A stretch of DNA of 64,000 nucleotides from Tritrichomonas musculus (taxonomy: Eukaryota > Parabasalia > Tritrichomonadida > Tritrichomonadidae). The notes under the pieces are model-generated. The model ran no database searches. It was not told the origin of the DNA and was given only the letters and a program-made list of their open reading frames with translations. Of this stretch, positions 13,926 to 59,044 are shown piece after piece. The stretch spans positions 4,154,001-4,218,000 of the forward strand of contig JAPFFF010000004.1 in the NCBI GenBank assembly GCA_039105265.1. Reading direction: 5' to 3'. The number at the start of each line of letters is the position of its first letter. Within the stretch, counting starts at the first letter, position 1. A program made the position numbers and the translations under genes.

Positions 13926-13956
13926 ATTTTCTTTTGAGAAAAATAATAAAAGCAAA

Positions 13957-14514: not shown

Positions 14515-14551
14515 TTAAATTGATAAAAAATGTTAATATTTGCACGAGTTT

Positions 14552-15238: not shown

Positions 15239-15250
15239 TGTCTTTTAATA

Positions 15251-17201: not shown

Positions 17202-17212
17202 TTAAATTTGTC

Positions 17213-18543: not shown

Positions 18544-18589
18544 TTTTATAAAAATAGTAAAATATAAAAACAAAAGTGCAAAAACCAAC

Positions 18590-22281: not shown

Positions 22282-24328
22282 TCATTTCTTAGGATTATAG
22301 ACTAATTGCTGCTGCTGTTGCTGATTAAGATTATAAACTGGTAGTAATTGCTGATTATGATTATAGACTAATTGCTGCTGCTGTTGCTGTTGCGGATTAA
22401 GATTATAAACTGGTAGCAGCCGCTGGTTAAAATTATAAACTGGTAGCAATGGTGTATTATGATTATAAACTGGTAGCAATGGTGTATTATGATTATAAAC
22501 TGGTAGCAGCGGTGGATTATGATTATAAACAGGCTGTGGTTGTTGTTGTAGAAATTGACTGTAAACAGGTTGAGGTGGTATTTGATTCCGAACAGGGAGA
22601 TTTTGCAATCTTTTTCTTCTTTTATTTTGTTGTGCTTGTACTTGATTTCCGAGCTTTTCAATATGCTTTGAAATGGATTTCATTTGTTTTTCAAAAGATT
22701 GTTTCTTTTTTTTTAATTTTAGAGACAAATAATTCTGATCAAATTGTAAAATATGCTTAATACTCTGTTCTTTTAGCAACATTAGGTTCTCTTCATTACA
22801 TATGATTTGCTTATTATGTTCATAATGAATGCTTTCATTAAAATCATCTGATATTTCATCAATTATGAATCTATTGAAAAGATTCAAGGAATATAACTGA
22901 TTAAAATCCTCTTTGAATTGATTGCCATTTATTTGGAAATATTTTAAAATGGATTGGTACCATGCATCATTGATTAATGCATCATCAATACTATCCCATG
23001 ATTTTTCAAGAACTACAACAGCTTCTGCTTTCGATGTCGGTGAATATGGTTGTGTTGGCGCAGTTAAAATTGCTTTTTCAAAGTCAAAAATGTCTAAAAG
23101 TTTCTGAACCACTTTTATATTCAGATAAGTTCTAGCGTGATTTTTAAGAACTCCGAAAACACGACAATCTAATGGTTGGAAAATATCTATCGTGCCTTCA
23201 GGTATTTTTATGAGTTTTATATTAAGAATTTGTGAAAAATTGATTACTTCTTTTGAAAAATGAGCATTATAACTGTCACATAATAAAAAGATAGTATTAA
23301 ATGGTGCATAAAAGTCAGTGTTTGGTTCTACTGGACACCAATTAAATCTTAAATTATGAAGATATCGCATCCAAGTTGTTTGCGTGGTCCATCTAGATTC
23401 TGAATGGCCAGTGATGGAAGTTGGACAAAATGGTTTGTCTTCACCCAAAAAAGGATCGATCAAAACTTCAGCATCTTGAGGATTTAAAATATTTCTACCT
23501 GCCCCAAACCAGTTTCGTTCAGAGACTTCTGTTGCACCTTTTGATATCAAAACTAATGGAAACTTTTTACCTTCGGCATTTATTGTTGCGATACAAGTAA
23601 AATTGCTTTTTTCATCCACATTTGAATAGATAGAAACGTTCTCAGTGCCTGTTTCGGCCCAAGTATATTCACCGGATTCCTGAAAACACCAGCAAGTCTC
23701 ATCAACATTTAGTATTTTATTCTTTGGCGAATTATTAAATATTTTGCAAACTATTCTTAAAAAATTTATAATATTGCTTAGTTTTGTTTTCGTCCTACGT
23801 TTTTTATGAAATTTCCTTCTCGAAAAAGAATGTTTCTTTTTAAAATTTACAATCCATTTACTTGATGCATTAAATAAATTTTCAAAATTGATTCCTTTTT
23901 TTTCTTCATCAGTTTGAATGACTTTATCCATGTTTTTTTTATAATAATATGAAGTAATAACTTTTCGGACTAAACTATTATTTATCTGTATATTTTGTTC
24001 TTCGATGATTTACCTAATAAGCTCTGCTATAATTATTTCTTCTTGATTAGTAATTTGCTTGCGCTGATCTTTTGTGCAATGGAAGCCAATTGCTATTCAA
24101 TCTAAGAAAATGAATCCAATTTCGAATTGTGCTCTCCGGTATATTATAACCATAACTAAGTGCTTTAAGTTCTTCCAGCGATACTGGTCTTGAATAAAGT
24201 GTTTGCCATATACCATTTTTGATTAATTTTCTGATTTTTGGAAGATGATTTTGGTATCCTTTTTTTCGGGGATTGTTTATTGCCGCTTGACATCTTCCAA
24301 GGAATGTATCACGTGAAAGAACAGGCAT
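22282..24328 (-). pseudogene. Pogo/Tigger-like DDE transposase with Gln/Pro-rich tail, two lesions
   Basis: Two ORFs belong to one protein. 24047-24328 gives the N-terminal helix-turn-helix part (LSYGYNIPESTIRNWIHFLR). 22282-23931 gives the rest: FSRRKFHKKRRTK (second DNA-binding segment), NVDETCWCF (first Asp), FLLCDSYNAH (second Asp), and IFQPLDCRVFGVLKNHAR (third Asp). They are separated by a frameshift near 24060 and an in-frame TAA at 24012-24010; between these the second frame reads QITNQEEIIIAELIR, and it continues as IIEEQNIQINNSLVRKV up to the internal Met. The C-terminal 100 residues are unusual: a repeated PVYNHN-PLL motif (30-bp units, 22440-22530) with Gln runs. The lesions make it a pseudogene, though recent. 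Confidence 0.85.
22434..22530 (-). repeat. 30-bp minisatellite in the transposase tail
   Basis: About three to four copies of a unit beginning GGTAGCAATGGTGTATTATG, coding a 10-residue PVYNHNTPLL-like repeat on the - strand. Related degenerate units extend to about 22310 and 22560. Confidence 0.8.
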
Positions 24329-24491: not shown

Positions 24492-24907
24492 TAAAATCTT
24501 GGCAATTTATATACAAAATTTTTAATTGAATTGAATTGATTATTCAATTAATTCTGAGAGAAATATAAAAATCATTCAAAATCAAAATATATAATTGATT
24601 TTGATATTATATATGGTCCGTACGTTTGCACCAAATAGATTTCTGAACTGGGTAATACGAATTTTTTTAATCTTATTTTTTTAAATTTACAAGAAACTTG
24701 CTCCGCCGTTTATAAAAAAATCTATTTTAATAAAACAAATAAATGATGAAAACAATAATAATAAAAAGCGGTGAAACAAACAAATAAATAATGAATAAAT
24801 ATCACAGAAAATAAAAATATAAAATTTAATTATAACCATATTGTCTTCAATATTAGAAATATATTTGATTAATTAATATCTCAAAGTTCTCCTTCGGTGG
24901 ATGCATA
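24492..24907. other. AT-rich spacer before the satellite
   Basis: No gene, repeat or regulatory signal is seen. The stretch is AT-rich host sequence leading into the first satellite unit at about 24908. Confidence 0.6.
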
Positions 24908-26076
24908 ACCATCCTGGCCTGGCTGAAGGCGGCATCTGTCGATATCATTAATTGACGATGCCGCCCTCAACCATCCTGGCCTGGTGAAGGCGGCATCTGT
25001 CGATATCATTAATTGACGATGCCGCCCTCAACCATCCTGGCCTGGTGAAGGCGGCATCTGTCGATATCATTAATTGACGATGCCGCCCTCAACCATCCTG
25101 GCCTGGTGAAGGCGGCATCTGTAGATATAATTCATTGATGATGCCGCCCTCAACCATCCTGGCCTGGCTGAAGGCGGCATCTGTAGATATAATTCATTGA
25201 TGATGCCGCCTTCAACCATCCTGGCCTGGCTGAAGGCGGCATCTGTAGATATAATTCATTGATGATGCCGCCCTCAACCATCCTGGCCTGGTGAAGGCGG
25301 CATCTGTAGATATAATTCATTGATGATGCCGCCCTCAACCATCCTGGCCTGGCTGAAGGCGGCATCTGTAGATATAATTCATTGATGATGCCGCCCTCAA
25401 CCATCCTGGCCTGGCTGAAGGCGGCATCTGTAGATATAATTCATTGATGATGCCGCCATCAACCATCCTGGCCTGGTGAAGGCGGTATCTGTAGATATAA
25501 TTCATTGATGATGCCGCCCTCAACCATCCTGGCCTGGCTGAAGGCGGCATCTGTAGATATAATTCATTGATGATGCCGCCCTCAACCATCCTGGCCTGGC
25601 TGAAGGCGGCATCTGTAGATATAATTCATTGATGATGCCGCCCTCAACCATCCTGGCCTGGCTGAAGGCGGCATCTGTAGATATAATTCATTGATGATGC
25701 CGCCTTCAACCATCCTGGCCTGGCTGAAGGCGGCATCTGTAGATATAATTCATTGATGATGCCGCCATCAACCATCCTGGCCTGGTGAAGGCGGCATCTG
25801 TAGATATAATTCATTGATGATGCCGCCCTCAACCATCCTGGCCTGGCTGAAGGCGGCATCTGTAGATATAATTCATTGATGATGCCGCCCTCAACCATCC
25901 TGGCCTGGTGAAGGCGGCATCTGTCGATATCATTAATTGATGATGCCGCCCTCAACCATCCTGGCCTGGTGAAGGCGGCATCTGTAGATATAATTCATTG
26001 ATGATGCCGCCATCAACCATCCTGGCCTGGTGAAGGCGGCATCTGTAGATATAATTCATTGATGATGCCGCCCTCA
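24908..26076. repeat. Higher-order satellite block, copy 1 (1169 bp)
   Basis: The succession of monomer types from 24908 is repeated from 26077 with the same 61/62-bp order and nearly the same variants. The shift is 1169 bp (about 19 monomers). A difference is visible at 25708 (CCGCCTTC) versus 26877 (CCGCCATC). Confidence 0.85.
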
Positions 26077-27245
26077 ACCATCCTGGCCTGGCTGAAGGCG
26101 GCATCTGTCGATATCATTAATTGACGATGCCGCCCTCAACCATCCTGGCCTGGTGAAGGCGGCATCTGTCGATATCATTAATTGACGATGCCGCCCTCAA
26201 CCATCCTGGCCTGGTGAAGGCGGCATCTGTCGATATCATTAATTGACGATGCCGCCCTCAACCATCCTGGCCTGGTGAAGGCGGCATCTGTAGATATAAT
26301 TCATTGATGATGCCGCCCTCAACCATCCTGGCCTGGCTGAAGGCGGCATCTGTAGATATAATTCATTGATGATGCCGCCTTCAACCATCCTGGCCTGGCT
26401 GAAGGCGGCATCTGTAGATATAATTCATTGATGATGCCGCCCTCAACCATCCTGGCCTGGTGAAGGCGGCATCTGTAGATATAATTCATTGATGATGCCG
26501 CCCTCAACCATCCTGGCCTGGCTGAAGGCGGCATCTGTAGATATAATTCATTGATGATGCCGCCCTCAACCATCCTGGCCTGGCTGAAGGCGGCATCTGT
26601 AGATATAATTCATTGATGATGCCGCCATCAACCATCCTGGCCTGGTGAAGGCGGTATCTGTAGATATAATTCATTGATGATGCCGCCCTCAACCATCCTG
26701 GCCTGGCTGAAGGCGGCATCTGTAGATATAATTCATTGATGATGCCGCCCTCAACCATCCTGGCCTGGCTGAAGGCGGCATCTGTAGATATAATTCATTG
26801 ATGATGCCGCCCTCAACCATCCTGGCCTGGCTGAAGGCGGCATCTGTAGATATAATTCATTGATGATGCCGCCATCAACCATCCTGGCCTGGCTGAAGGC
26901 GGCATCTGTAGATATAATTCATTGATGATGCCGCCATCAACCATCCTGGCCTGGTGAAGGCGGCATCTGTAGATATAATTCATTGATGATGCCGCCCTCA
27001 ACCATCCTGGCCTGGCTGAAGGCGGCATCTGTAGATATAATTCATTGATGATGCCGCCCTCAACCATCCTGGCCTGGTGAAGGCGGCATCTGTCGATATC
27101 ATTAATTGATGATGCCGCCCTCAACCATCCTGGCCTGGTGAAGGCGGCATCTGTAGATATAATTCATTGATGATGCCGCCATCAACCATCCTGGCCTGGC
27201 TGAAGGCGGCATCTGTAGATATAATTCATTGATGATGCCGCCCTC
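26077..27245. repeat. Higher-order satellite block, copy 2 (1169 bp)
   Basis: Second copy of the block described at 24908-26076. The array after 27245 does not repeat the same order a third time and is richer in the plain 62-bp monomer. Confidence 0.85.
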
Positions 27246-29187
27246 AACCATCCTGGCCTGGCTGAAGGCGGCATCTGTAGATATAATTCATTGATGATGC
27301 CGCCCTCAACCATCCTGGCCTGGTGAAGGCGGCATCTGTCGATATCATTAATTGACGATGCCGCCCTCAACCATCCTGGCCTGGCTGAAGGCGGCATCTG
27401 TAGATATAATTCATTGATGATGCCGCCCTCAACCATCCTGGCCTGGCTGAAGGCGGCATCTGTAGATATAATTCATTGATGATGCCGCCCTCAACCATCC
27501 TGGCCTGGCTGAAGGCGGCATCTGTAGATATAATTCATTGATGATGCCGCCCTCAACCATCCTGGCCTGGCTGAAGGCGGCATCTGTAGATATAATTCAT
27601 TGATGATGCCGCCCTCAACCATCCTGGCCTGGCTGAAGGCGGCATCTGTAGATATAATTCATTGATGATGCCGCCATCAACCATCCTGGCCTGGCTGAAG
27701 GCGGCATCTGTAGATATAATTCATTGATGATGCCGCCCTCAACCATCCTGGCCTGGCTGAAGGCGGCATCTGTAGATATAATTCATTGATGATGCCGCCC
27801 TCAACCATCCTGGCCTGGTGAAGGCGGCATCTGTAGATATAATTCATTGATGATGCCGCCCTCAACCATCCTGGCCTGGCTGAAGGCGGCATCTGTAGAT
27901 ATAATTCATTGATGATGCCGCCCTCAACCATCCTGGCCTGGCTGAAGGCGGCATCTGTAGATATAATTCATTGATGATGCCGCCCTCAACCATCCTGGCC
28001 TGGCTGAAGGCGGCATCTGTAGATATAATTCATTGATGATGCCGCCCTCAACCATCCTGGCCTGGCTGAAGGCGGCATCTGTAGATATAATTCATTGATG
28101 ATGCCGCCATCAACCATCCTGGCCTGGCTGAAGGCGGCATCTGTAGATATAATTCATTGATGATGCCGCCCTCAACCATCCTGGCCTGGCTGAAGGCGGC
28201 ATCTGTAGATATAATTCATTGATGATGCCGCCATCAACCATCCTGGCCTGGCTGAAGGCGGCATCTGTAGATATAATTCATTGATGATGCCGCCCTCAAC
28301 CATCCTGGCCTGGCTGAAGGCGGCATCTGTAGATATAATTCATTGATGATGCCGCCCTCAACCATCCTGGCCTGGCTGAAGGCGGCATCTGTAGATATAA
28401 TTCATTGATGATGCCGCCCTCAACCATCCTGGCCTGGTGAAGGCGGCATCTGTCGATATCATTAATTGATGATGCCGCCCTCAACCATCCTGGCCTGGCT
28501 GAAGGCGGCATCTGTAGATATAATTCATTGATGATGCCGCCATCAACCATCCTGGCCTGGTGAAGGCGGCATCTGTAGATATAATTCATTGATGATGCCG
28601 CCCTCAACCATCCTGGCCTGGCTGAAGGCGGCATCTGTAGATATAATTCATTGATGATGCCACCCTCAACCATCCTGGCCTGGCTGAAGGCGGCATCTGT
28701 AGATATAATTCATTGATGATGCCGCCCTCAACCATCCTGGCCTGGCTGAAGGCGGCATCTGTAGATATAATTCATTGATGATGCCGCCCTCAACCATCCT
28801 GGCCTGGCTGAAGGCGGCATCTGTAGATATAATTCATTGATGATGCCGCCCTCAACCATCCTGGCCTGGCTGAAGGCGGCATCTGTAGATATAATTCATT
28901 GATGATGCCGCCCTCAACCATCCTGGCCTGGCTGAAGGCGGCATCTGTAGATATAATTCATTGATGATGCCGCCCTCAACCATCCTGGCCTGGCTGAAGG
29001 CGGCATCTGTAGATATAATTCATTGATGATGCCGCCCTCAACCATCCTGGCCTGGCTGAAGGCGGCATCTGTAGATATAATTCATTGATGATGCCGCCAT
29101 CAACCATCCTGGCCTGGTGAAGGCGGCATCTGTAGATATAATTCATTGATGATGCCGCCCTCAACCATCCTGGCCTGGTGAAGGCGG

Positions 29188-29500
29188 AGTAGATATACTA
29201 AGGGGGGCGATGGCTATTGAAATTCGCTAAAACAATTACGTTAACTTTATACGGTTTTACTAGGTCCGAACAACACTCAACAGTTCAGAACCAATTCGAA
29301 ACACATCGCCGGTATATTGGTACCCACTAACTGAAAACCATTACGAAAATAATTGGAAACGTTAGAGATACTCATATAAGTCCGATAGTTCGATAAAATC
29401 GTTAACAACGTCTGGAAAGTCCATCACAGACGATAATCATATACTAAAAATAATAGAGAGATCATTTCAATAGCCATCGCCCCCCCTTAGTATATCTACT
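29188..29500 (+). repeat. Left terminal 313-bp module with its own 36-bp inverted ends
   Basis: The outer end (29188-29223) is repeated inverted at 29464-29500, ending in GCCATCGCCCCCCCTTAG and TATATCTACT. The module thus resembles a small independent inverted-repeat element used as the terminus of the large one. The inside has no gene. Confidence 0.85.
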
Positions 29501-29717
29501 TTGATTTTGTCACCCTATAGAAATTATTATTATAGTTCAACCGATATTGATTTGTAACTGATAAACCTAATAACTAACTCGCTAACGAATTAATCTGTAA
29601 ACGATATCACTAACGAAATACATTAAATGAACTCATGTGTATTGTTTAGTAAACGAACTCACTAACGAATCATTGAATACGAATCACTAACGATAACATG
29701 TATGAACCAACTATAAA

Positions 29718-29803
29718 CGATCAGAATCACTCATGAACCACGTCGTTGGTTAGGGGGTTAACTCTAACACGATATGTACCATGTTTAGTAACCATGCGAT
29801 TTT
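29718..29803 (+). repeat. 85-bp conserved box, left arm copy 1
   Basis: Contains GATCAGAATCACTCATGA, GGTTAG-GGGTTAACTCTAAC and TACCATGTTTAGTAACCA. It occurs three times per arm (also 32961-33050 and, inverted, 34811-34900) and in mirrored positions in the right arm. Conservation between otherwise unrelated surroundings suggests a functional site. Confidence 0.8.
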
Positions 29804-30082
29804 ATGGTCGATAATGATGAATTCGCTGACGAATCATGAGATGAATTCGCTGACGATGAAGAGTAAATGATGTTTATTTTTGGTTTCACTTAAATGAGTG
29901 TCAAATCCATAGACGTTCTTGGTCGTAAAGTAGAATCCTCTATAGATTACTCGGAACCCACTCATAAGACCCCTCGAATGGGCACTTGCGTAGGATCATC
30001 TGCGCAGTAGGTCTATTATTTTTGGTTTGTATCGTTAAGAGTCGATCATTAACGAACAACATCACTAACGAACTTATCATAA

Positions 30083-30616
30083 ATGTATATCACCAACGAA
30101 CTTATCGTGAACGATCCAACTATAACATCCAACGTAAACGATCCAACTATGACATCTGATGTAAACGATCCAGCTATAACATCTGATGTGAACGATCCAA
30201 TTATAACATCTGATGTAAACGATCCAACTATAACATCTGATGTAAACGATCCAACTATAACATCTATCGTGAACGATCCAACTATAACATCTATCGTAAA
30301 CGATCCAACTATAACATCTATCGTGAACGATCCAGCTATAACATCTGATGTAAACGATCCAGCTATAACATCTGATGTAAACTATCCAACTATAACATCT
30401 GATGTAAACGATCCAACTATAACATCTATCGTGAACGATCCAGCTATGACATCTGATGTAAACGATCCAGCTATAACATCTGATGTAAACGATCCAGCTA
30501 TAACATCTGATGTAAACTATCCAACTATAACATCTGATGTAAACGATCCAACTATAACATCTATCGTGAACGATCCAACTATAACATCTGATGTAAACGA
30601 TCCAGCTAAGACATGA
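30083..30616 (+). repeat. 27-bp minisatellite, left arm (open on both strands)
   Basis: About 19 copies of a unit beginning AACGATCCAACTATAACATC. The + strand reads a 9-residue repeat NDPTITSDV (177-residue frame with ATG 30083); the - strand reads SWIVYIRCY (191-residue frame, 30077-30652). Variants swap GATGTA for ATCGTG and ACT for GCT. Either frame could be a repeat protein, but a unit length divisible by three keeps frames open without selection, so coding is not claimed. Confidence 0.85.
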
Positions 30617-30887
30617 TGAGACCAAAAAGATGATTTTTTTAGCAAAAACCAACTACAGTAGATGCGTCATGCATTCGATATAAGAGATGAACATACTAAC
30701 CCGGGATCGTACATCCAATCCTTTATAAAGAGAAACAATATGCATCTACTATAGTTGGGGAACGTTCATTACGAGGATTACATTTGTCGACAAATGCTTC
30801 TGTGTTATCTATACCACAAGTAATAGCTTACCCAAGGTGTTTAGTTCGCTATGGGCTCTATCACAAATATGATACAAATTTACACAG

Positions 30888-30967
30888 AAAATCGGTATGG
30901 TAGCGAATCGAACTTGCACCTGCAACCGAAGTCCGGAGATGCACTTCATGATCCAACAACTATACCA
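30888..30967 (-). ncRNA. tRNA-like Pol III unit, left arm
   Basis: On the - strand TGGTATAGTTG (30967-30957) fits the Pol III box A consensus and GTTCGATTC (30913-30905) fits box B, 54 nt apart as in tRNA genes. A TTTT terminator (30891-30888) follows. The sequence cannot be folded into a proper cloverleaf: the T stem and acceptor stem do not pair. It is therefore a tRNA-derived or tRNA-mimicking unit and not a working tRNA. It is divergent from the 141-residue ORF starting 37 bp away. Confidence 0.4.
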
Positions 30968-31004
30968 ACACAGCTAGCTAATTATAGTATCGAAATTAAC
31001 ATTT

Positions 31005-31430
31005 ATGCGTTATCTGTGTAAGTTTAATTCCATCGAAATGAGTAAGATCAAGAATCCATCATTTGCAAAGCAAACTCCATACAATGGACAACCGACACTC
31101 GAAGAGTTATACACTACCGATGACTTATCAGTACTTAAACGAGCTATCACCGAGTTAACAACCAAACAAGATTATAAGACCCTCAACACCCTGTTTCGTC
31201 GTAATCCAAATGCTAGTAAGTTCGACAGTAGAACACTTAATGAAGATATACCACAATCGACAAAACGATTCACCAAACGTAATGGCAAACTCTGTAATGT
31301 ATCACGAACAGTTCCACGACAGAGTACTACCAAACCAGAAGAGAGTGACACATACACATACAAGTCCAGATACTACGATCCACATACCAAATCGTTTAAG
31401 TATGTCACTAGAATACAATCCAAGTACTAA
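31005..31430 (+). CDS. Orphan protein of the palindromic element, left arm copy
   Basis: 141 residues, start ATG 31005, or ATG 31038 (MSKIKNPSFAK) if the upstream GTAAGT-containing leader is not coding. Composition is balanced, unlike the low-complexity DNA around it. A charged N-terminal half (TLEELYTTDDLSVLKRAI) looks helical; the C-terminal half is basic and Tyr/Thr-rich (RFTKRNGKLCNV, KSRYYDPHTKSFKYVTRI). The high pI and the YYDP-type strand suggest a nucleic-acid or capsid-like binding role, but no family is recognised. The copy in the right arm (38837-39262) encodes the same protein. Confidence 0.6.
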   Translation: MRYLCKFNSIEMSKIKNPSFAKQTPYNGQPTLEELYTTDDLSVLKRAITELTTKQDYKTLNTLFRRNPNASKFDSRTLNEDIPQSTKRFTKRNGKLCNVSRTVPRQSTTKPEESDTYTYKSRYYDPHTKSFKYVTRIQSKY

Positions 31431-31484
31431 GTGAATCACTCCATTGGTAACATATCTATTTTTGATCGGTAACAGTCGAACATC

Positions 31485-34400
31485 ATCATGAGCACATCAT
31501 CAACAACTCATTCATCACGATCAACAACTCAATCAACAATCGCTTCATCACGATCATCATCAATCGATCATCAATCTATCAAAAACTCAATCGTCATCAA
31601 TCGATCAACATCAATCTATCAAAAACTCAATCGTCATCAATCGATCAACATCAATCTATCAAAAACTCAATCGTCATCAATCGATCAACATCAATCGATC
31701 AACAATTCAATCAACATCAACAGGATCATCAACAAACGATCAACATCAATCGATCAACAATTCAATCAACATCAACAGGATCATCAACATATCGATCATC
31801 AACAAACGATCATCATGAACACATCATCAACATCATCATCATCGATCATCATCAATCGATCATCATCAATCGATCAACTCAATCGTCATGCATTCGATCA
31901 TTATCAACAACTCAATCATCATCAACAGGATCATCATCAATCGATCATCATCAATCGATCAACTCAATCGATCAACATCAACAGGATCATCAACATATCG
32001 ATTCATTCATCATGATCATCAACAACTCATTCATCAACAATCGATCAACAACATCGTCATCAATCGATCAACAACAACATCATCAACAACTCAATCGTCA
32101 TCAATCGATCAACATCAATCGATCAGCAACAGGATCATCAACAACTCAATCGTCATCAATCGATCAACAACATCATCATCATCAATCGATCAACATCAAC
32201 TCATTCATCACGATCATCAACATCATCATCACGATCATCATCAAACGAACATCATGATCGTCATCAACAACAACATCAACATCAAATCATCAACAACTCG
32301 ATCCTCATTAATCGATCATCATCAACAACTCATTCATCAACAACAACATCTATAATCGATCATCATGAACACATCATCAACAATTCATTCATCATCAACA
32401 ACTCATTCATCATCAACAGGATCATCAACAGTATCGATTCATTCATCATGAACACATCATCATCAATCGATCAACAACTCTATCATCATCATCAATCGAT
32501 CAACAACTCTATCATCATCAACACGATCATCAGCAACAACATCATCAACATATCGATTCATTCATTATCAACATATCGATTCATTCATTATCAACATATC
32601 GATTCATTCATCGTCAATGAACATCATTAACTGGATCACTCATGATCATCAATCAACTGTATCATCAACATACCGATTCATTCATCATTACGAACGAATA
32701 TATATCGATCAATCATCATCATAAATCGAACATCATCAACAACGAACATCAACTCTACGATCATCAACATATCAACTCATTCGTCATTAACGGCATGTTC
32801 ATCAACGATAGGTTCATCAACGACATGTTCATCAATCGAACATCGTCAACAGGATCACTCATGATCATCAATCAACAGTATCATCAACATATCGATTCAT
32901 TCATCAACATCAACAGTATCAACTCATTCGTCAACAATCGATCATATCATTAATCGAAATCGATCAGAATCACTCATGAATCAATCGTTTGGTTAGTGGG
33001 TTAACTCTAACACAATATGTACCACGTTTAGTAACCATGCGATTTTGATCCATATTTGATACGTTTTCGATCCATTTCGATCATTATATAACGATTCATC
33101 ATCATCGATCAACATCATCATCATCGATCATCATGAACACGTCATCATCAATCGAACATCAACAACAGTATCATCAACAGAATCAACATCAACTCAATCA
33201 TCATCATCAACAGGATCATCAACAGTATCGATTCATTCATCATCAACAGGATCATCAACATCAAATCATCAACAATCGATTCATTCATTCATCGTTCATC
33301 AACACATCAATCCTCATCAACTCATTCATCACGATCAACATATCAACTCATTCATCACGATCGTCATCAACAACATCATCAACACGATCATCAGCAACAA
33401 CATCATCAACATACCGATTCATTCATCAATCGATCAACATCAATCGATCAACAACAGTATCATCAACAGAATCATCATCAACTCATTCATCATCAACAGG
33501 ATCATCAACAGTATCGATTCATTCATCATCAACAACATCATCATCACGATCAACAGTAACAGTATCATCAACAGTATCGATTCATTCATCATCAACAACA
33601 TCATCATCACGATCAACAGTAACAGTATCATCAACAGGATCATCTACATATCAACTCATTCGTCACAAACAACATCAAATCATCATCAACATATCGATCA
33701 TCAACAACATATCGATCATCAACAACAACATCATCATCTGGATCACTCATGATCATCATCATGATCATCAACAACATATCGATTCATTCATCACGATCAT
33801 CATCAACAGGATCATCAACTCAGTCATCATCACGATCATCAACATATCGATTCATTCATCAACTCAATCAACATCATCAGCATCATATCATCAATCGATC
33901 AACAACTCAATCATCATCATCATCATCAACTCAATCAACATCATCAACTCAATCATCAACAACAGTATCATCACGATCAACATCAACAACTCGTTCATCA
34001 ACAACATATCGATTCATTTATCATCAACGAACATATATCGATCATCATGAACACATCATCATCAACAGGATCATCATCACGATCATCATCAACATATCGA
34101 TTCATTCATCACGAACGAATATATATCGATCAACATCAACATCATCGATCATCATGAACACGTCATCAACAACTCAATCATCATCAACAGGATCATCATC
34201 AATCGACATCAACTCATTCATCAACAACAGTATCATCAACAGGATCATCAATCGATCAACAACTCATTCATCATCAACAACATCAACATCAACAGTATTA
34301 TCAACAATCGATTCATTCATCGTTTATCAACACATCAATCCTCATCAACAGGATCATCAATCGATCAACAACTCAATCATCATCAACAGGATCATCAACT

Positions 34401-34735
34401 CATTCATCACGATCATCATCAACATCATCCTCATCAATCGACATCAATCAACAGTATCATCAACATATCGATTCATTAACAACAACAGCAACATCGATCA
34501 ACAACAGTATCATCAACAGGATCATCATCAACTCATTCATTCATTCATCGTTCATCAACACATCAATCCTCATCAACTCATTCATCACAATCGACATATC
34601 AACTCAATCATCATCAACAGGATCATCAACATATCAATTCATTCATCATGATCATCATCAAATCATCAATCGATCAACAACTCAAACAACATCAACATCA
34701 ACATATCAACTCATTCGTCATCAATCGATCACTAA
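31485..34735 (+). repeat. ATC/AAC-rich cryptic repeat, left arm
   Basis: About 3.2 kb built from shuffled words such as ATCATC, AACAACTC, TCGATCAACA and AACAGGATC. The + strand is poor in G, so nearly all three + frames stay open over long runs (Ser/Thr/Gln-rich, Ile/Asn/His-rich or mixed translations). One 85-bp box (32961-33050) interrupts it. The translations show no conserved fold; I treat it as cryptic simple sequence. Confidence 0.85.
32961..33050 (+). repeat. 85-bp conserved box, left arm copy 2
   Basis: Same core as 29718-29803 (GGTTAGTGGGTTAACTCTAA, GTTTAGTAACCATGCGATTT). It lies between two blocks of cryptic repeat. Confidence 0.8.
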
Positions 34736-34810
34736 CAGTTGGACGATAACAGCATCGATATCGGATCATCTATATTCGCATCAGATTCGACTGAAAACAG
34801 CTTATTTTTG

Positions 34811-34900
34811 GATCAAAATCGATTGGTTACTAAACATGGTACATATCGTGTTAGAGTTAACCCACTAACCAACGAAGTGATTCATGAGTGATTCTGATCG
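34811..34900 (-). repeat. 85-bp conserved box, left arm copy 3 (inverted)
   Basis: Reverse orientation relative to copies 1 and 2 in this arm (TGGTTACTAAACATGG, GAGTTAACCCACTAACCA). It sits close to the palindrome centre, beside a 35-bp direct repeat (CGATATCGGATCATCTATAT) found at about 34755 and 34976. Confidence 0.8.
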
Positions 34901-35001
34901 ATAACGAAGCGTCTGTGATCATAACTTAACGAATCATTAACGATAAACCATGAACGGATCCAACTATACGGTTTCAATCGATATCGGATCATCTATATCC
35001 G

Positions 35002-35042
35002 CATCAGATTCGATTAATAACAAGTCACTCGATATCATCTCA

Positions 35043-35085
<43 letters not shown>

Positions 35086-35263
35086 CACAGATATTAATCG
35101 ACGATACCTAAACTAGATTCTCCAGTTTCGGATTCGCATGTGAAACTCGATAAAAGTCGGTAAAGTTGGTATTGGTTAATATTGTCGATAATGTAAGTGT
35201 TTATGTATTCGTTCATATACCCGATAATGTTATCTCTAATATTGTCGATAATGTATCTATATC
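35002..35263. other. Unpaired central spacer of the palindrome
   Basis: 262 bp without inverted counterpart. It holds a (CA)n run (35044-35082) and several ATTGTCGATAATGT repeats (about 35178-35255). A 73-residue frame across it (35094-35315) shows no sign of coding. Confidence 0.8.
35044..35082. repeat. (CA)n microsatellite, about 19 units
   Basis: Uninterrupted CA dinucleotides in the central spacer, placed asymmetrically about 70 bp left of the palindrome midpoint. Confidence 0.95.
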
Positions 35264-35364
35264 CGGATATAGATGATCCGATATCGATTGAAACCGTATA
35301 GTTGGATCCGTTCATGGTTTATCGTTAATGATTCGTTAAGTTATGATCACAGACGCTTCGTTAT

Positions 35365-35454
35365 CGATCAGAATCACTCATGAATCACTTCGTTGGTTAG
35401 TGGGTTAACTCTAACACGATATGTACCATGTTTAGTAACCAATCGATTTTGATC
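35365..35454 (+). repeat. 85-bp conserved box, right arm mirror of copy 3
   Basis: Reverse complement of 34811-34900 at the mirrored position. Confidence 0.8.
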
Positions 35455-35529
35455 CAAAAATAAGCTGTTTTCAGTCGAATCTGATGCGAATATAGATGAT
35501 CCGATATCGATGCTGTTATCGTCCAACTG

Positions 35530-38500
35530 TTAGTGATCGATTGATGACGAATGAGTTGATATGTTGATGTTGATGTTGTTTGAGTTGTTGATCGATTGAT
35601 GATTTGATGATGATCATGATGAATGAATTGATATGTTGATGATCCTGTTGATGATGATTGAGTTGATATGTCGATTGTGATGAATGAGTTGATGAGGATT
35701 GATGTGTTGATGAACGATGAATGAATGAATGAGTTGATGATGATCCTGTTGATGATACTGTTGTTGATCGATGTTGCTGTTGTTGTTAATGAATCGATAT
35801 GTTGATGATACTGTTGATTGATGTCGATTGATGAGGATGATGTTGATGATGATCGTGATGAATGAGTTGATGATCCTGTTGATGATGATTGAGTTGTTGA
35901 TCGATTGATGATCCTGTTGATGAGGATTGATGTGTTGATAAACGATGAATGAATCGATTGTTGATAATACTGTTGATGTTGATGTTGTTGATGATGAATG
36001 AGTTGTTGATCGATTGATGATCCTGTTGATGATACTGTTGTTGATGAATGAGTTGATGTCGATTGATGATGATCCTGTTGATGATGATTGAGTTGTTGAT
36101 GACGTGTTCATGATGATCGATGATGTTGATGTTGATCGATATATATTCGTTCGTGATGAATGAATCGATATGTTGATGATGATCGTGATGATGATCCTGT
36201 TGATGATGATGTGTTCATGATGATCGATATATGTTCGTTGATGATAAATGAATCGATATGTTGTTGATGAACGAGTTGTTGATGTTGATCGTGATGATAC
36301 TGTTGTTGATGATTGAGTTGATGATGTTGATTGAGTTGATGATGATGATGATGATTGAGTTGTTGATCGATTGATGATATGATGCTGATGATGTTGATTG
36401 AGTTGATGAATGAATCGATATGTTGATGATCGTGATGATGACTGAGTTGATGATCCTGTTGATGATGATCGTGATGAATGAATCGATATGTTGTTGATGA
36501 TCATGATGATGATCATGAGTGATCCAGATGATGATGTTGTTGTTGATGATCGATATGTTGTTGATGATCGATATGTTGATGATGATTTGATGTTGTTTGT
36601 GACGAATGAGTTGATATGTAGATGATCCTGTTGATGATACTGTTACTGTTGATCGTGATGATGATGTTGTTGATGATGAATGAATCGATACTGTTGATGA
36701 TACTGTTACTGTTGATCGTGATGATGATGTTGTTGATGATGAATGAATCGATACTGTTGATGATCCTGTTGATGATGAATGAGTTGATGATGATTCTGTT
36801 GATGATACTGTTGTTGATCGATTGATGTTGATCGATTGATGAATGAATCGGTATGTTGATGATGTTGTTGCTGATGATCGTGTTGATGATGTTGTTGATG
36901 ACGATCGTGATGAATGAGTTGATATGTTGATCGTGATGAATGAGTTGATGAGGATTGATGTGTTGATGAACGATGAATGAATGAATCGATTGTTGATGAT
37001 TTGATGTTGATGATCCTGTTGATGATGAATGAATCGATACTGTTGATGATCCTGTTGATGATGATGATTGAGTTGATGTTGATTCTGTTGATGATACTGT
37101 TGTTGATGTTCGATTGATGATGACGTGTTCATGATGATCGATGATGATGATGTTGATCGATGATGATGAATCGTTATATAATGATCGAAATGGATCGAAA
37201 ACGTATCAAATATGGATCAAAATCGCATGGTTACTAAACGTGGTACATATTGTGTTAGAGTTAACCCACTAACCAAACGATTGATTCATGAGTGATTCTG
37301 ATCGATTTCGATTAATGATATGATCGATTGTTGACGAATGAGTTGATACTGTTGATGTTGATGAATGAATCGATATGTTGATGATACTGTTGATTGATGA
37401 TCATGAGTGATCCTGTTGACGATGTTCGATTGATGAACATGTCGTTGATGAACCTATCGTTGATGAACATGCCGTTAATGACGAATGAGTTGATATGTTG
37501 ATGATCGTAGAGTTGATGTTCGTTGTTGATGATGTTCGATTTATGATGATGATTGATCGATATATATTCGTTCGTAATGATGAATGAATCGGTATGTTGA
37601 TGATACAGTTGATTGATGATCATGAGTGATCCAGTTAATGATGTTCATTGACGATGAATGAATCGATATGTTGATAATGAATGAATCGATATGTTGATAA
37701 TGAATGAATCGATATGTTGATGATGTTGTTGCTGATGATCGTGTTGATGATGATAGAGTTGTTGATCGATTGATGATGATGATAGAGTTGTTGATCGATT
37801 GATGATGATGTGTTCATGATGAATGAATCGATACTGTTGATGATCCTGTTGATGATGAATGAGTTGTTGATGATGTGTTCATGATGATCGATTATAGATG
37901 TTGTTGTTGATGAATGAGTTGTTGATGATGATCGATTAATGAGGATCGAGTTGTTGATGATTTGATGTTGATGTTGTTGTTGATGACGATCATGATGTTC
38001 GTTTGATGATGATCGTGATGAATGAGTTGATGTTGATCGATTGATGATGATGATGTTGTTGATCGATTGATGACGATTGAGTTGTTGATGATCCTGTTGC
38101 TGATCGATTGATGACGATTGAGTTGTTGATGATCCTGTTGCTGATCGATTGATGTTGATCGATTGATGACGATTGAGTTGTTGATGATGTTGTTGTTGAT
38201 CGATTGATGACGATGTTGTTGATCGATTGTTGATGAATGAGTTGTTGATGATCATGATGAATGAATCGATATGTTGATGATCCTGTTGATGTTGATCGAT
38301 TGAGTTGATCGATTGATGATGATCGATTGATGATGATCCTGTTGATGATGATTGAGTTGTTGATAATGATCGAATGCATGACGATTGAGTTGATCGATTG
38401 ATGATGATCGATTGATGATGATCGATGATGATGATGTTGATGATGTGTTCATGATGATCGTTTGTTGATGATCGATATGTTGATGATCCTGTTGATGTTG

Positions 38501-38780
38501 ATTGAATTGTTGATCGATTGATGTTGATCGTTTGTTGATGATCCTGTTGATGTTGATTGAATTGTTGATCGATTGATGTTGATCGATTGATGACGATTGA
38601 GTTTTTGATAGATTGATGTTGATCGATTGATGACGATTGAGTTTTTGATAGATTGATGTTGATCGATTGATGACGATTGAGTTTTTGATAGATTGATGAT
38701 CGATTGATGATGATCGTGATGAAGCGATTGTTGATTGAGTTGTTGATCGTGATGAATGAGTTGTTGATGATGTGCTCATG
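35530..38780 (-). repeat. ATC/AAC-rich cryptic repeat, right arm
   Basis: Mirror of 31485-34735; on the + strand it reads GATGATGTTGATCG-type words. Long stretches are identical to the left arm in translation, with small copy-number indels around 38.0-38.1 kb, where this arm has an extra unit of about 40 bp. Confidence 0.85.
37215..37304 (-). repeat. 85-bp conserved box, right arm mirror of copy 2
   Basis: Reverse complement of 32961-33050. Confidence 0.8.
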
Positions 38781-38836
38781 ATGATGTTCGACTGTTACCG
38801 ATCAAAAATAGATATGTTACCAATGGAGTGATTCAC

Positions 38837-39262
38837 TTAGTACTTGGATTGTATTCTAGTGACATACTTAAACGATTTGGTATGTGGATCGTAGTATCTG
38901 GACTTGTATGTGTATGTGTCACTCTCTTCTGGTTTGGTAGTACTCTGTCGTGGAACTGTTCGTGATACATTACAGAGTTTGCCATTACGTTTGGTGAATC
39001 GTTTTGTCGATTGTGGTATATCTTCATTAAGTGTTCTACTGTCGAACTTACTAGCATTTGGATTACGACGAAACAGGGTGTTGAGGGTCTTATAATCTTG
39101 TTTGGTTGTTAACTCGGTGATAGCTCGTTTAAGTACTGATAAGTCATCGGTAGTGTATAACTCTTCGAGTGTCGGTTGTCCATTGTATGGAGTTTGCTTT
39201 GCAAATGATGGATTCTTGATCTTACTCATTTCGATGGAATTAAACTTACACAGATAACGCAT
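38837..39262 (-). CDS. Orphan protein of the palindromic element, right arm copy
   Basis: Encodes the same 141 residues as 31005-31430. Two full-length identical copies in opposite arms mean the arms are either very young or kept alike by gene conversion. Alternative start at ATG 39229. Function unknown; see the left-arm entry for the visible composition. Confidence 0.6.
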   Translation of the reverse strand: MRYLCKFNSIEMSKIKNPSFAKQTPYNGQPTLEELYTTDDLSVLKRAITELTTKQDYKTLNTLFRRNPNASKFDSRTLNEDIPQSTKRFTKRNGKLCNVSRTVPRQSTTKPEESDTYTYKSRYYDPHTKSFKYVTRIQSKY

Positions 39263-39299
39263 AAATGTTAATTTCGATACTATAATTAGCTAGCTGTGT

Positions 39300-39379
39300 T
39301 GGTATAGTTGTTGGATCATGAAGTGCATCTCCGGACTTCGGTTGCAGGTGCAAGTTCGATTCGCTACCATACCGATTTT
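39300..39379 (+). ncRNA. tRNA-like Pol III unit, right arm
   Basis: Mirror of 30888-30967: box A TGGTATAGTTG (39300-39310), box B GTTCGATTC (39354-39362), TTTT at 39376-39379. Same inability to form a full cloverleaf. Confidence 0.4.
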
Positions 39380-39650
39380 CTGTGTAAATTTGTATCATAT
39401 TTGTGATAGAGCCCATAGCGAACTAAACACCTTGGGTAAGCTATTACTTGTGGTATAGATAACACAGAAGCATTTGTCGACAAATGTAATCCTCGTAATG
39501 AACGTTCCCCAACTATAGTAGATGCATATTGTTTCTCTTTATAAAGGATTGGATGTACGATCCCGGGTTAGTATGTTCATCTCTTATATCGAATGCATGA
39601 CGCATCTACTGTAGTTGGTTTTTGCTAAAAAAATCATCTTTTTGGTCTCA

Positions 39651-40184
39651 TCATGTCTTAGCTGGATCGTTTACATCAGATGTTATAGTTGGATCGTTCA
39701 CGATAGATGTTATAGTTGGATCGTTTACATCAGATGTTATAGTTGGATAGTTTACATCAGATGTTATAGCTGGATCGTTTACATCAGATGTTATAGCTGG
39801 ATCGTTTACATCAGATGTCATAGCTGGATCGTTCACGATAGATGTTATAGTTGGATCGTTTACATCAGATGTTATAGTTGGATAGTTTACATCAGATGTT
39901 ATAGCTGGATCGTTTACATCAGATGTTATAGCTGGATCGTTCACGATAGATGTTATAGTTGGATCGTTTACGATAGATGTTATAGTTGGATCGTTCACGA
40001 TAGATGTTATAGTTGGATCGTTTACATCAGATGTTATAGTTGGATCGTTTACATCAGATGTTATAATTGGATCGTTCACATCAGATGTTATAGCTGGATC
40101 GTTTACATCAGATGTCATAGTTGGATCGTTTACGTTGGATGTTATAGTTGGATCGTTCACGATAAGTTCGTTGGTGATATACAT
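39651..40184 (-). repeat. 27-bp minisatellite, right arm
   Basis: Mirror of 30083-30616, identical in unit order as judged from both translations (NDPTITSDV on the - strand, SWIVYIRCY on the + strand). Confidence 0.85.
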
Positions 40185-40463
40185 TTATGATAAGTTCGTT
40201 AGTGATGTTGTTCGTTAATGATCGACTCTTAACGATACAAACCAAAAATAATAGACCTACTGCGCAGATGATCCTACGCAAGTGCCCATTCGAGGGGTCT
40301 TATGAGTGGGTTCCGAGTAATCTATAGAGGATTCTACTTTACGACCAAGAACGTCTATGGATTTGACACTCATTTAAGTGAAACCAAAAATAAACATCAT
40401 TTACTCTTCATCGTCAGCGAATTCATCTCATGATTCGTCAGCGAATTCATCATTATCGACCAT

Positions 40464-40549
40464 AAAATCGCATGGTTACTAAACATGGTACATATCGTGT
40501 TAGAGTTAACCCCCTAACCAACGACGTGGTTCATGAGTGATTCTGATCG
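40464..40549 (-). repeat. 85-bp conserved box, right arm mirror of copy 1
   Basis: Reverse complement of 29718-29803. Confidence 0.8.
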
Positions 40550-40766
40550 TTTATAGTTGGTTCATACATGTTATCGTTAGTGATTCGTATTCAATGATTC
40601 GTTAGTGAGTTCGTTTACTAAACAATACACATGAGTTCATTTAATGTATTTCGTTAGTGATATCGTTTACAGATTAATTCGTTAGCGAGTTAGTTATTAG
40701 GTTTATCAGTTACAAATCAATATCGGTTGAACTATAATAATAATTTCTATAGGGTGACAAAATCAA

Positions 40767-41086
40767 AGTAGATATACTAAGGGGGGGCGATGGCTATTGA
40801 AATGATCTCTCTATTATTTTTAGTATATGATTATCGTCTGTGATGGACTTTCCAGACGTTGTTAACGATTTTATCGAACTATCGGACTTATATGAGTATC
40901 TCTAACGTTTCCAATTATTTTCGTAATGGTTTTCAGTTAGTGGGTACCAATATACCGGCGATGTGTTTCGAATTGGTTCTGAACTGTTGAGTGTTGTTCG
41001 GACCTAGTAAAACCGTATAAAGTTAACGTAATTGTTTTAGCGAATTTCAATAGCCATCGCCCCCCCCCCCCCTTAGTATATCTACT
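40767..41086 (-). repeat. Right terminal module with its own inverted ends
   Basis: Mirror of 29188-29500, 320 bp because the outer C run is 13 long here against 6 in the left outer end (inner runs are 7 in both). Confidence 0.85.
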
Positions 41087-41156
41087 GGCGGCATCTGTAG
41101 ATATAATTCATTGATGATGCCGCCATCAACCATCCTGGCCTGGTGAAGGCGGCATC
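41087..41156. repeat. Single satellite remnant after the palindromic element
   Basis: GGCGGCATCTGTAGATAT through GAAGGCGGCATC, one unit of the 61/62-bp satellite in the same orientation as the main array. It shows that the palindromic element landed in the last units of the array. Confidence 0.9.
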
Positions 41157-41670
41157 TAGAATAAGTAATTAATCTTTTATTCAATTACGATTATTAATTA
41201 AAAAATCTTATCTACTCATTTAATTTTTGAATTGCCATTGAAAAAAAAAATAGGTAATATATAACTAAATATTTAATATATATGAAAAATTAATTTTTTT
41301 ATACTCATATTTTACATAATAATAAACGAAAAGCTAGTTGATAAAAGATAACAACTGGCTTATTGGCAGAAAATAATTATTTGACAGTGAAAATGATAGA
41401 AAAGTATTTTATATTTAAAAGATATAAATATTTTAATAGATTAATTTAATTATTAATTATATATATATCATAATTTTCATATTTTAAAAAGTTTTTTTCA
41501 AGCGGAATGATGAAAAAAAGGCAATTTAAAAAAATGCACTTTTTTCAAATCGAGTCAATATATATTCGTTATTTCCAAAAAATTCAATATTTTACAAAAT
41601 ATCAATTCTAAGGTTAACCTGTGTAAAAAAGTAAAATAAAAATGAACAGAGAACAACAATTTTAAAAATC
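41157..41670. other. AT-rich intergenic stretch
   Basis: No gene or clear repeat; AT-rich spacer between the satellite remnant and the 3' end of the surface-protein gene. Confidence 0.6.
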
Positions 41671-46311: not shown

Positions 46312-49300
46312 AGAGGGTTGATTTAAATATCATACATAAAAAATGCACTCAGAAAAAGTTCATCTTATCAAAAAGTTCATGATTATTTTTTGAGAGGGCT
46401 CAGAAATATCCGGACTTTTTGAATGTCAATAGAAACCGCCATGAAAGGTGTTTTTAATTGGCCATCTTGAAAATTGAATTATTGAAAAACCGCGGTTTTC
46501 CATTATTTTATTTACCTATTACCAAGAGCGAATCTTGGTTTACTTGCTGCTTCAAAACAGCGCTCTGCCAATGATAAACATTGATGGAGATTGAGGTAAA
46601 TGCTGGTTTCTTATAAATCATAGGATCTCCTAAATAGAGATTCTGTCATTACTATAAAATGAGCTCTTGAATCGTATCCAGGAGCACAAGGTTATACTCT
46701 TGATCAACATGTTGATTATTTAAGCGCTTCATTTTACAGATTTCTGAATCTCCTAAATAGAGATTCTGTCATTACTATAAAATGAGCTCTTGAATCGTAT
46801 CCAGGAGCACAAGGTTATACTCTTGATCAACATGTTGATTATTTAAGCGCTTCATTTTAAAGATTTCTCAATATCCAAATTTCAATTTCCAATATCAACT
46901 AATACCATAAAATCATGTAAAATTCAATTTAATAAAATTGATCTTATATTTCACATTTTTTTTAGATTTTGCAAAGATAAATATATTGATAGATCATAAA
47001 ATTCACACTTTTTCGAAATTTTTTTATTCAATTTTTTTCAATGATTTTTAATCGTTGTGGCCTAGCATTTTTTTTTAGCTCAGTCGTCTACTTAAGCTCA
47101 GTAAATATTAACATAGTATTTACCCTATTACCATTCACAAATATCAATTAGGTTTACAGACACTCGAAATTCATGAGAAAAAGGTTCAAATGCTGAATTG
47201 ATCAGTTCTCAATAGCAATAAAAATGTTATCCAATCAAAACAATAAGCTTGATTTACATAAATGATTAAGAAATATATCCAAAATATAGGTATTAATAAA
47301 CATTTTTATATTATTTTTGTGCTTTTTCATGTTCTTTTTCATTTTTGAGTATATTTTAATCGTCGTGGCCGTACTTCTAAATCCATTGGTTAAAGAAAAA
47401 ATGGAAAACGATATTTCCATTTACAAAAAAAAATAAAATTTCTTAAAAAAAGATTAATAAATATAATTTTTAAATACCTTTTAATATCATATTTGAATTT
47501 AAAAAGCATTTTAGGAAGTTATAAGTTTATATCAGAATCTGAAATATGGAGATATTGAAATCTTTAAAATGAAGCGCTTAAATAATCAACATGTTGATCA
47601 AGAGTATAACCTTGTGCTCCTGGATACGATTCAAGAGCTCATTTTATAGTAATGACAGAATCTCTATTTAGGAGATTCAGAAATCTGTAAAATGAAGCGC
47701 TTAAATAATCAACATGTTGATCAAGAGTATAACCTTGTGCTCCTGGATACGATTCAAGAGCTCATTTTATAGTAATGACAGAATCTCTATTTAGGAGATC
47801 CTATGATTTATAAGAAACCAGCATTTACCTCAATCTCCATCAATGTTTATCATTGGCAGAGCGCTGTTTTGAAGCAGCAAGTAAACCAAGATTCGCTCTT
47901 GGTAATAGGTAAATAAAATAATGGAAAACCGCGGTTTTTCAATAATTCAATTTTCAAGATGGCCAATTAAAAACACCTTTCATGGCGGTTTCTATTGACA
48001 TTCAAAAAGTCCGGATATTTCTGAGCCCTCTCAAAAAATAATCATGAACTTTTTGATAAGATGAACTTTTTCTGAGTGCATTTTTTATGTATGATATTTA
48101 AATCAGCCAATATAGAGGTATTCATGTAGAGAAATTGACGAAATATTGTAATTTTGATCATTATTTCTTTATTTTTATTTTGAAACTAAGAATGTACTTT
48201 AATGAATAAGAATTTTATACTCCTATTTTTGAGATATTTCTATTTTTATTTTTCTGAAATAAAAATGGTTTTATATTTGAGAGGCGGTATAATTTTTTTA
48301 TATAAAAATTGATGTAATATAGAAATATATTTATATTTGTTTTATTTTTTATTATTGTATATATATTTAAATAATATATTAATATTTATATGTTTAAAAT
48401 ACATTTTATTTCTAAAGATATACAAATTTATATTTCATTTTATTTTTAAAAAATTTTTAACTTTTTCAGTTATTATATTGTTTTATTGAAATAATAAACT
48501 TTTTGTATCCTAGTAATATTTTTATTTAAACATTATTTTAATTTATATTTATGATAGATATTACTATTTATATACATTTTGTATTTTATATTTAAGATTT
48601 ATATAATATATTAAATAGATAAATTAACAAAAAAAAAAAAAAAAAAAAAAAAAAAATGAAAAATTCAATTAAACGATGATTTTAAATTGAATTTCTAAAT
48701 ATATTAGTTGGTTTGTATTGTGATTGTCTTTTGGTTTTCAATATATTAAATATTAAAATTAATTTTATAAAATGGCAAATAATAATTTGACCAAATAGAA
48801 AATATTTTTTTAATATTTTTATGAAGATGCGCAAATTTATATTTTTCAAGAATCATTTCACTATTAACTTCACTTCACCGAAATTTAATCATCTCACATC
48901 ACTAAAATAATAATAACGTACATAAATACGATGAAAAATAATTCAAAATAATACAAAATATTAATTACATTTTTCTTTAAAATGAGAGTATAAATTAACT
49001 TATTTACATAATAAAATTTATTTAAATATATATTATTATTATATTGTACAATTAATGTATTATTATTTCGTAAAGCAATTGAGAAATAAGTCATTTTCTA
49101 AAATTTTTTATGTAAATTTGTGGTTAAATCAATATATGGCTAGTAATTTGGAAATAAAACAGATAATATATTTTATAAGTAAAATATAAAATATTATTAT
49201 TGATTTGTAATTCATAAATATTTTATTTGACACGAGATATAAACCAAATATAATTTTTTAAATAGTTTTTAAATTCTCAACATCCATTAAAACCAATTAT

Positions 49301-49428
49301 GGCAAATGCAAGTATTTAATATATAGAAGTAAATAATCTTAATATTTTTTCATAAGATAAAATATTCATTCAATTAAACTAAAAATAAAAAAACAAATAA
49401 CGAGTATTCACTTCACATGAATACCTCT
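46312..49428. mobile_element. AGAGG-type transposon with 8-bp target duplication, interrupted by a Mutator-like MITE
   Basis: The left end AGAG (46312-46315) continues at 48118 after a nested element; the right end ACATGAATACCTCT stops at 49428. Both sides are flanked by AAAAATAT (46304-46311 and 49429-49436). Without the nested insert it is about 1.3 kb with 14-bp inverted ends AGAGGTATTCATGT. It contains a poly-A run (48629-48657) and a 66-residue chance frame only. Confidence 0.8.
46316..48108. mobile_element. Mutator-like foldback MITE, 1.8 kb, 9-bp target duplication
   Basis: Arms of about 560 bp in inverted order (46316 to about 46890; about 47535 to 48108) begin GGTTGATTTAAATATCAT and end with AAATCAGCC. 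Flanks are AATATAGAG on both sides (46307-46315, 48109-48117). Each arm contains a 123-bp tandem duplication (units starting at 46625 and 46748 on the left). The middle is AT-rich with no gene. Confidence 0.9.
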
Positions 49429-50495: not shown

Positions 50496-50496
50496 G

Positions 50497-56640: not shown

Positions 56641-56686
56641 GTTGGTTTTTGCACTTTTGTTTTTATATTTTACTATTTTTATAAAA

Positions 56687-57937: not shown

Positions 57938-57948
57938 GACTAATTTAA

Positions 57949-59034: not shown

Positions 59035-59044
59035 CGAATATTAA

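Follow-up and report, generated by a model that had tools for sequence, protein, structure and literature searches.

Long palindromes are usually unstable. Maverick/Polinton elements are virus-like and possess a protein-primed polymerase (PMC6431247). The snapback genomes of adeno-associated virus (AAV) are self-complementary and helper-dependent, with one viral end, two arms and, in the asymmetric forms, a loop; symmetric snapback forms have also been described, as has a head-to-head dimer that follows the synthesis of the second strand (PMC8235507). This report concerns a palindromic element of 11,899 bp at positions 29188–41086 (C4:4183188-4195086) of a 64,000-nucleotide stretch of the genome of the mouse-gut commensal Tritrichomonas musculus (the window; bases 4154001–4218000 of contig C4). 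The ends of the element are those of Mavericks. With a probability of roughly 0.65, it is read as a non-autonomous Maverick satellite that is moved in trans and restores its palindrome through fold-back copying. Symmetric defective adenovirus DNA, a protein-primed linear genome with one of its ends duplicated in mirror image, differs from this element in being a by-product of virus growth and in forming no transposon family. Among the documented systems found, the AAV snapback genome would be the nearest analogue; as far as that source describes it, it differs in that the present element is chromosomally integrated, has target duplications and belongs to a persistent family with a gene of its own, and in that the helper proposed here has a PolB gene (PMC8235507).

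The palindrome was delimited by arm-to-arm BLAST and alignment and by comparison of the joined flanks. Its arms extend from 29188 to about 35001 and from about 35249/35264 to 41086 around a mirror axis at about 35132.5, and the unpaired spacer between them (35002–35263) measures 247–262 bp, depending on where the inner edge of the alignment is placed. An earlier note, made from the sequence alone, had proposed an 11.9-kb palindromic insertion with arms mirrored around about 35133 and a 262-bp spacer, and this architecture stands. Aligned with each other, the arms give 5,775 identical columns and no substitution. They differ in length only, at four places: the G-run at the right end is 7 bases longer, and steps of 41, 21 and 18 bp occur at 32112–32390 in a CAT-rich zone (arm-to-arm alignment). 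The alignment also has an edge at 35001; the BLAST identity of 99.2–99.3% falls short of 100% because of gaps. Each arm contains an open reading frame (ORF) of 141 amino acids (aa) directed toward the centre, at 31005–31430 on the plus strand (ORF list, family search) and at 38837–39262 on the minus strand (ORF list, sequence comparison), the two being 100% identical. Two duplicate contigs, C285 and C590, agree with the window at every one of the 9,999 bases compared from each, and their flanks are 99.99–100% identical to its left flank. They carry the left flank, the left arm and the loop, together with a right arm that is largely (C285) or partly (C590) present, and they show the arm length differences as far as each of them extends. 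Ending inside the right arm, they back the left junction and the centre and not the right junction, and their independence from the main contig may be doubtful.

The insertion target is a 62-bp satellite array (24907–29187; 69.4 copies with 97% matches in Tandem Repeats Finder). The satellite has a GC content of 51%, that of the T. musculus genome being 29% (PMC11978803), and every unit holds the inverted repeat GATGCCGCC/GGCGGCATC. Copies of GGCGG abut the left end (29183–29187) and the right end (41087–41091) of the element, and when the flanks are joined without one of them, the junction 60-mer is identical to the satellite at 60/60 positions, as expected of the target-site duplication that the earlier note had recognized. 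Its statement that the satellite lies on both sides in the same orientation is right in that the repeat phase is restored across the junction, and needs correction on the right, where sequence reading finds only a remnant of about 74 bp (41087–41160, end approximate) and no continuing array. The segment 29188–41086 is a genuine palindromic insertion. A search for 5-bp duplications elsewhere, which the same note had suggested, gave direct duplications of 4–5 bp abutting the ends in 9/9 elements having both flanks (the window element, C6, C36, C5, C28, C8, C65, C18 and C13:248–320 kb). Two of these are palindromic (GGCGG in the window element, GCATG in C18), and seven are Mavericks or Maverick-end pairs of the same genome with 4–5 bp, compared with 5 bp in the window element. 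When flanks were paired across different elements as a control, a match of at least 4 bp appeared in 0/72 cases. Published Polintons have a 6-bp target-site duplication, longer than the 4–5 bp found here. Transib transposons, with short terminal inverted repeats (TIRs), share the 5-bp duplication with the window element and differ in termini and transposase.

The type of the element, which the earlier note regarded as unknown, is revealed by its ends. The terminus AGTAGATATACTAAGG is present at both of them (AGTAG...CTACT), and the left terminal 712 bp (29188–29899, plus strand) is common to Maverick ends, with 94.4–98.7% identity to both ends of the elements on C6, C5, C36, C8 and C65. The right copy of this Maverick-type inverted repeat (40368–41086, minus strand, its inner edge inferred by mirroring) has 7 more G. 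At each end of the element sits a 313-bp unit at whose inner edge the terminus recurs in inverted orientation (on the left, 29188–29500 on the plus strand, with the terminus copies at 29188–29223 and 29464–29500). In the genome searched (746 contigs, 193,395,805 bases), the terminal 333 bp has 33 long matches of 76–100% identity, two of them on the duplicate contigs. Inverted pairs of such matches lie about 23 kb apart in C6, C5, C28 and C8, and wider pairs of 42–72 kb occur in C36, C65 and C13 (C36 spans 42 kb and C65 48.7 kb). A parvovirus-like flip-flop of the 313-bp unit was considered and rejected: each of the 33 long matches is unbroken and in one orientation, and the reverse matches are 36-bp inverted pieces only. 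Among the elements with these ends, the gene scan covered that on C6. It gave Pfam matches above the cut-off to Pox_A32, DNA_pol_B_2, HNH and DUF3839 and one below the cut-off to the rve integrase; because of the integrase-like, packaging-ATPase and PolB matches, the C6 element is classed as a Maverick/Polinton.

The likeness is not confined to the ends. A 255-bp stretch of the left arm (30659–30913, plus strand; sequence comparison), just ahead of the 141-aa ORF, has a counterpart of 85% identity in the C6 Maverick, upstream of the DUF3839 gene, where it is mostly intergenic and overlaps the end of a neighbouring ORF by about 59 bp. A motif of about 90 bp from the arm is repeated in the same Maverick, next to genes or between them. 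The window element thus resembles Mavericks in its 712-bp terminal repeat, its AG...CT terminus, its short target duplication and these internal stretches. It is unlike them in being almost wholly a mirrored arm, in its 141-aa ORF, for which tblastn (E up to 1) gave no match in the available pieces of the C6, C5, C36 and C8 elements, and in that no polymerase, integrase or ATPase gene was found in it by a Pfam scan covering the 141-aa ORF, the other arm ORFs of at least 120 aa sitting in repeats outside that scan. No transposase was found in it either, as the earlier note had reported. Judged by its sequence, it is a non-autonomous derivative of a Maverick and not an autonomous one. Of the relatives that the note had put forward, the viral replicon with inverted ends proved to point the right way, Mavericks being virus-like (PMC6431247). 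The 313-bp terminal unit, the 141-aa ORF with dN below dS in each arm, the conserved loop and the mirrored substitutions go beyond what the note recorded.

The comparison of arms within and between copies bears on how the palindrome is maintained. Near the centre, arm-arm substitutions are absent from 6/8 loci compared (the window, C30, C24, C13, C8 and C11:462, the last over 290 bp only) and number nine in C10 and two in C18. Between loci there are 6 substitutions over 1,295 positions for the window and C30 and 13 over 1,223 for C10 and C13, other pairs having more, with several of these alignments poor in the CAT-rich zone. In four-row alignments of these two pairs, the closest ones with long arms, the mirrored substitutions outnumber those in one arm by 6 to 0 (window/C30) and by 13 to 7 (C10/C13), which gives 19 mirrored in both arms and 7 in a single arm. 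All of the latter are in the right arm of C10, where 7 differences are counted rather than 9 with the gap columns of the four-row alignment excluded. Independent arms would yield unmirrored differences; therefore, one arm has templated both between insertions, as is the case in snapback genomes, a result with which gene conversion is also compatible. The centre is conserved as well. At the place matching the window's spacer, a loop of 203 bp is found in C13, C30 and C8, identical at 200–202 of 203 positions (98.5–99.5%) and with coinciding arm-loop edges, and C24 has a loop of 205 bp that is about 79% identical to it; the loop is not itself palindromic. The longer unpaired centre of the window element apparently arises because sequence that forms part of the paired arms in C30 is missing here on one side.

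The further copies that the earlier note had recommended looking for do exist, and together they form a family; the lack of other copies, which the note had named as refuting its view, is thus not what the genome shows. The 141-aa ORF has at least 150 genomic matches (150 scored of 479 candidates), the best 122 of which were tabulated, with neighbours sought within 20 kb and the duplicate contigs C285 and C590 set aside. Among these 122 there are 13 convergent ORF pairs with equal identity in both arms, located at C10:4814077/4820657, C13:2967734/2980248, C22:170926/176350, C24:439228/443292, C27:1986021/1986768, C36:475501/476248, C38:620173/621040, C3:6625172/6625844 (second arm partial), in the window, at C4:4.23 Mb (4233827/4237841), at C6:2267979/2274123, and at C8:0.94 Mb (936827/940778) and C8:2.60 Mb (2598068/2598858). 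Convergent pairs of unequal identity occur on C32 (64/94%) and at C4:2.51 Mb (83/98%), and two further rows of the table are neighbouring copies on C27, one of them the sole same-direction pair. The palindromic copy at C4:4.23 Mb (G000:C4:4233429-4238661) lies about 15 kb past the window. A palindromic mini-element of 1,147 bp at C18:1923320-1924466 has a related TIR (84–88% identity) and the duplication GCATG, and lacks the 141-aa ORF. In some one-armed copies the homology ends within the loop (C54) or approximately at its far edge (C8:0.19 Mb and C11:3.59 Mb, in the latter perhaps about 20 bp into the other arm), and in all three AT-rich DNA adjoins the end of homology, which suggests either that a palindrome broke or that the end of a hairpin was joined directly. 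On C15, the second arm is reduced to remnants.

The Maverick ends, the short duplications, the mirrored substitutions and the conserved loop are seen in the DNA itself, whereas the hairpin and the Maverick helper are inferred. Because the ends of the element are Maverick TIRs, it could be served in trans by the polymerase and integrase of a Maverick. According to the proposed mechanism, the PolB and integrase of a helper Maverick would do so, and the transmitted unit would in effect be a single arm comprising the TIR, the 141-aa gene, the repeat zone and the loop. A displaced single strand would fold back on itself at the conserved loop, and the first arm would serve as template for the second; another round of synthesis would then open the hairpin for integration with a 5-bp duplication. 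Fold-back copying of this kind would place mutations in mirrored pairs, as observed in two element pairs, and leave recent copies with identical arms, as is also observed. After insertion, the arms can drift apart, as in C10, or one of them can be lost, as in the one-armed copies at C54, C8:0.19 Mb and C11:3.59 Mb. A broader proposal, offered tentatively and at somewhat under even odds, is that these satellites represent a class of mobile elements transmitted as a hairpin, consisting of one gene-bearing arm, a conserved 203-nt loop and a borrowed Maverick end, and unfolding to a palindrome on integration.

In the titles and abstract beginnings returned by searches of the open-access literature, no palindromic, foldback, non-autonomous or snapback Maverick/Polinton family appears, and the main text of the T. 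musculus genome paper contains 'transpos', 'maverick', 'palindrom' and 'inverted' 0 times (PMC11978803). The family is one of transposons built as a palindrome, with arms identical within a copy and copies differing from each other, and it would be a chromosomal and inheritable counterpart of viral snapback defective genomes. It also suggests that Mavericks possess satellites of their own. The mirrored mutations would be the footprint of fold-back copying and would offer a direct test of the mode of Maverick replication.

Several observations weigh against the satellite reading. Neither hairpin molecules nor extrachromosomal DNA of the element were seen among the assembled sequences. Among the best 122 of 150 matches, places with a single ORF outnumber paired ones, and the palindrome may be only one of several forms of the element, or arms may get lost. 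Outer ends have been read in two palindromes, the window element and C18, so that the window's is the only one among the 13 paired copies. A first terminus pattern gave nothing near the other 12 pairs among 100 of 142 places listed, on contigs of 10/12 of them, and a second gave 30 places, none near these pairs; the other 12 paired copies may have different ends than the window element. Mobilisation by Mavericks is deduced from the shared ends, and the 141-aa protein is without a known relative or confident fold in Pfam, PDB and BFVD searches. Arm identity is not uniform: outside the eight-locus set, L020 has a 385-bp inverted repeat at 84% and the arms at C4:2.51 Mb are about 82% alike, or else are two neighbouring copies. 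The window and C11:462 show 0 substitutions over 195 aligned positions, because of which within-locus and between-locus comparisons are not separable there by identity alone. Mirrored mutations would also be expected from gene conversion between the arms. In that case, a double-stranded palindrome of Maverick type would move as such and chromosomal gene conversion would keep its arms alike, as it does in the palindromes of Y chromosomes, and both the mirrored substitutions and the near-identical arms would be accounted for without any hairpin genome. This rival is the strongest one and is nonetheless considered unlikely. The substitutions confined to one arm of C10 and the divergence at C4:2.51 Mb mean that not all copies have their arms kept alike by conversion; they speak against strong ongoing conversion, and conversion around the time of movement remains compatible with them. 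Moreover, the three one-armed copies, whose homology stops inside the loop or near its far edge, suit the breakage or joining of a hairpin end, without being proof of it.

Alternatively, each palindrome might arise anew by fold-back of a one-armed Maverick fragment, the one-armed copies being mobile and the palindromes dead ends; single-ORF matches are indeed common, and mirrored substitutions would be expected. Independent events, however, should vary, and C13, C30 and C8 share a 203-bp loop with identical arm-loop edges, while the window copy and C18 bear short duplications at both ends of the palindrome, which makes this origin rather improbable. A fold-back artefact of sequencing or assembly has also been weighed. 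Whole genome amplification is a known source of inverted chimaeras. It is listed among the keywords of the genome paper, although the methods describe direct extraction; the PacBio reads average 8.9 kb, with Oxford Nanopore Technologies (ONT) reads used for scaffolding and gap filling (BioProject PRJNA841657; PMC11978803), and the right junction is supported by one contig. Nevertheless, such an artefact should leave the right flank inverted, whereas the satellite phase and the 5-bp duplication are restored there, and the earlier note was correct in setting it aside. In addition, the arms differ by length changes of 18–41 bp, other copies share the loop, and C10 has substitutions in one arm, all of which leaves an artefact with hardly any probability. 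As improbable, and disfavoured here, is a Foldback- or Galileo-like transposon, in which the inverted repeats would be very long and the transposase an unrelated one, a kinship that the note had also entertained. Galileo belongs to the P superfamily and has long TIRs, and Foldback-like elements resemble the window element in these long inverted repeats and in the variable tandem repeats inside them (PMC4168063). They differ in their P-superfamily transposase, in the lack of mirrored-mutation evidence in that source, and in duplications of 7–8 bp in the Galileo of Drosophila willistoni (PMC4168063), against 4–5 bp in the present genome; the window element, with 5 bp and Maverick ends, has neither termini of its own nor duplications of that length.

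Regarding the contents of the arms, a 27-bp tandem array (30110–30608, plus strand; mirror 39659–40157; tandem repeat search) precedes the 141-aa ORF in the left arm, and a CAT/ATC-rich low-complexity zone follows it (31488–34700, plus strand; mirror about 35550–38780; repeat and composition analysis). The long ORFs of this zone were rejected as genes, being sited in low-complexity trinucleotide repeats and looking compositional. Purifying selection appears to act on the 141-aa protein: dN is lower than dS in 7/7 comparisons among five copies, from 0.006/0.081 to 0.025/0.045, with only 9–12 differences underlying each of the six comparisons of equal length. No Pfam family matches it at E up to 0.001, and neither Pfam at E up to 1 nor a PDB profile search gave a consistent match. 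Its AlphaFold model is weak (mean pLDDT 65, pTM 0.38), and Foldseek searches of BFVD and PDB with that model gave 0 matches (E up to 0.001). A tblastn search of phage records found no relative, and four pattern matches in IMG/VR viral contigs were not confirmed, both collections being ones that may omit records of this genome. Protein searches gave 70 and 104 matches, most of them without a named source; one carries the label Bacteroides acidifaciens and is taken to be contamination. As a guess, the protein might help or exploit the Maverick. A second TIR class (for example C3:6312085-6312250), with pairs about 22–24 kb apart, adjoins single copies of the 141-aa ORF on C3, C48, C14, C6 and C4.

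Elsewhere in the window, searches with Rfam (gathering thresholds) and for tRNA genes gave nothing. A Maverick gene block with DNA_pol_B_2 and DUF3839 matches lies at 5384–9675, a run of minus-strand ORFs at 10123–18588 may be part of it, and a further Maverick-like gene block, with a sub-threshold match to the rve integrase, begins at 56642–59638. At 22282–23931, a 549-aa ORF has a DDE_1 transposase domain. Finally, three adjoining AT-rich inverted-repeat units occupy 46316–52056, with arms of 589 bp (98%), a nested set at about 48458–50499 (87–96%) and arms of 341 bp (99%), and are possibly another type of palindromic repeat.

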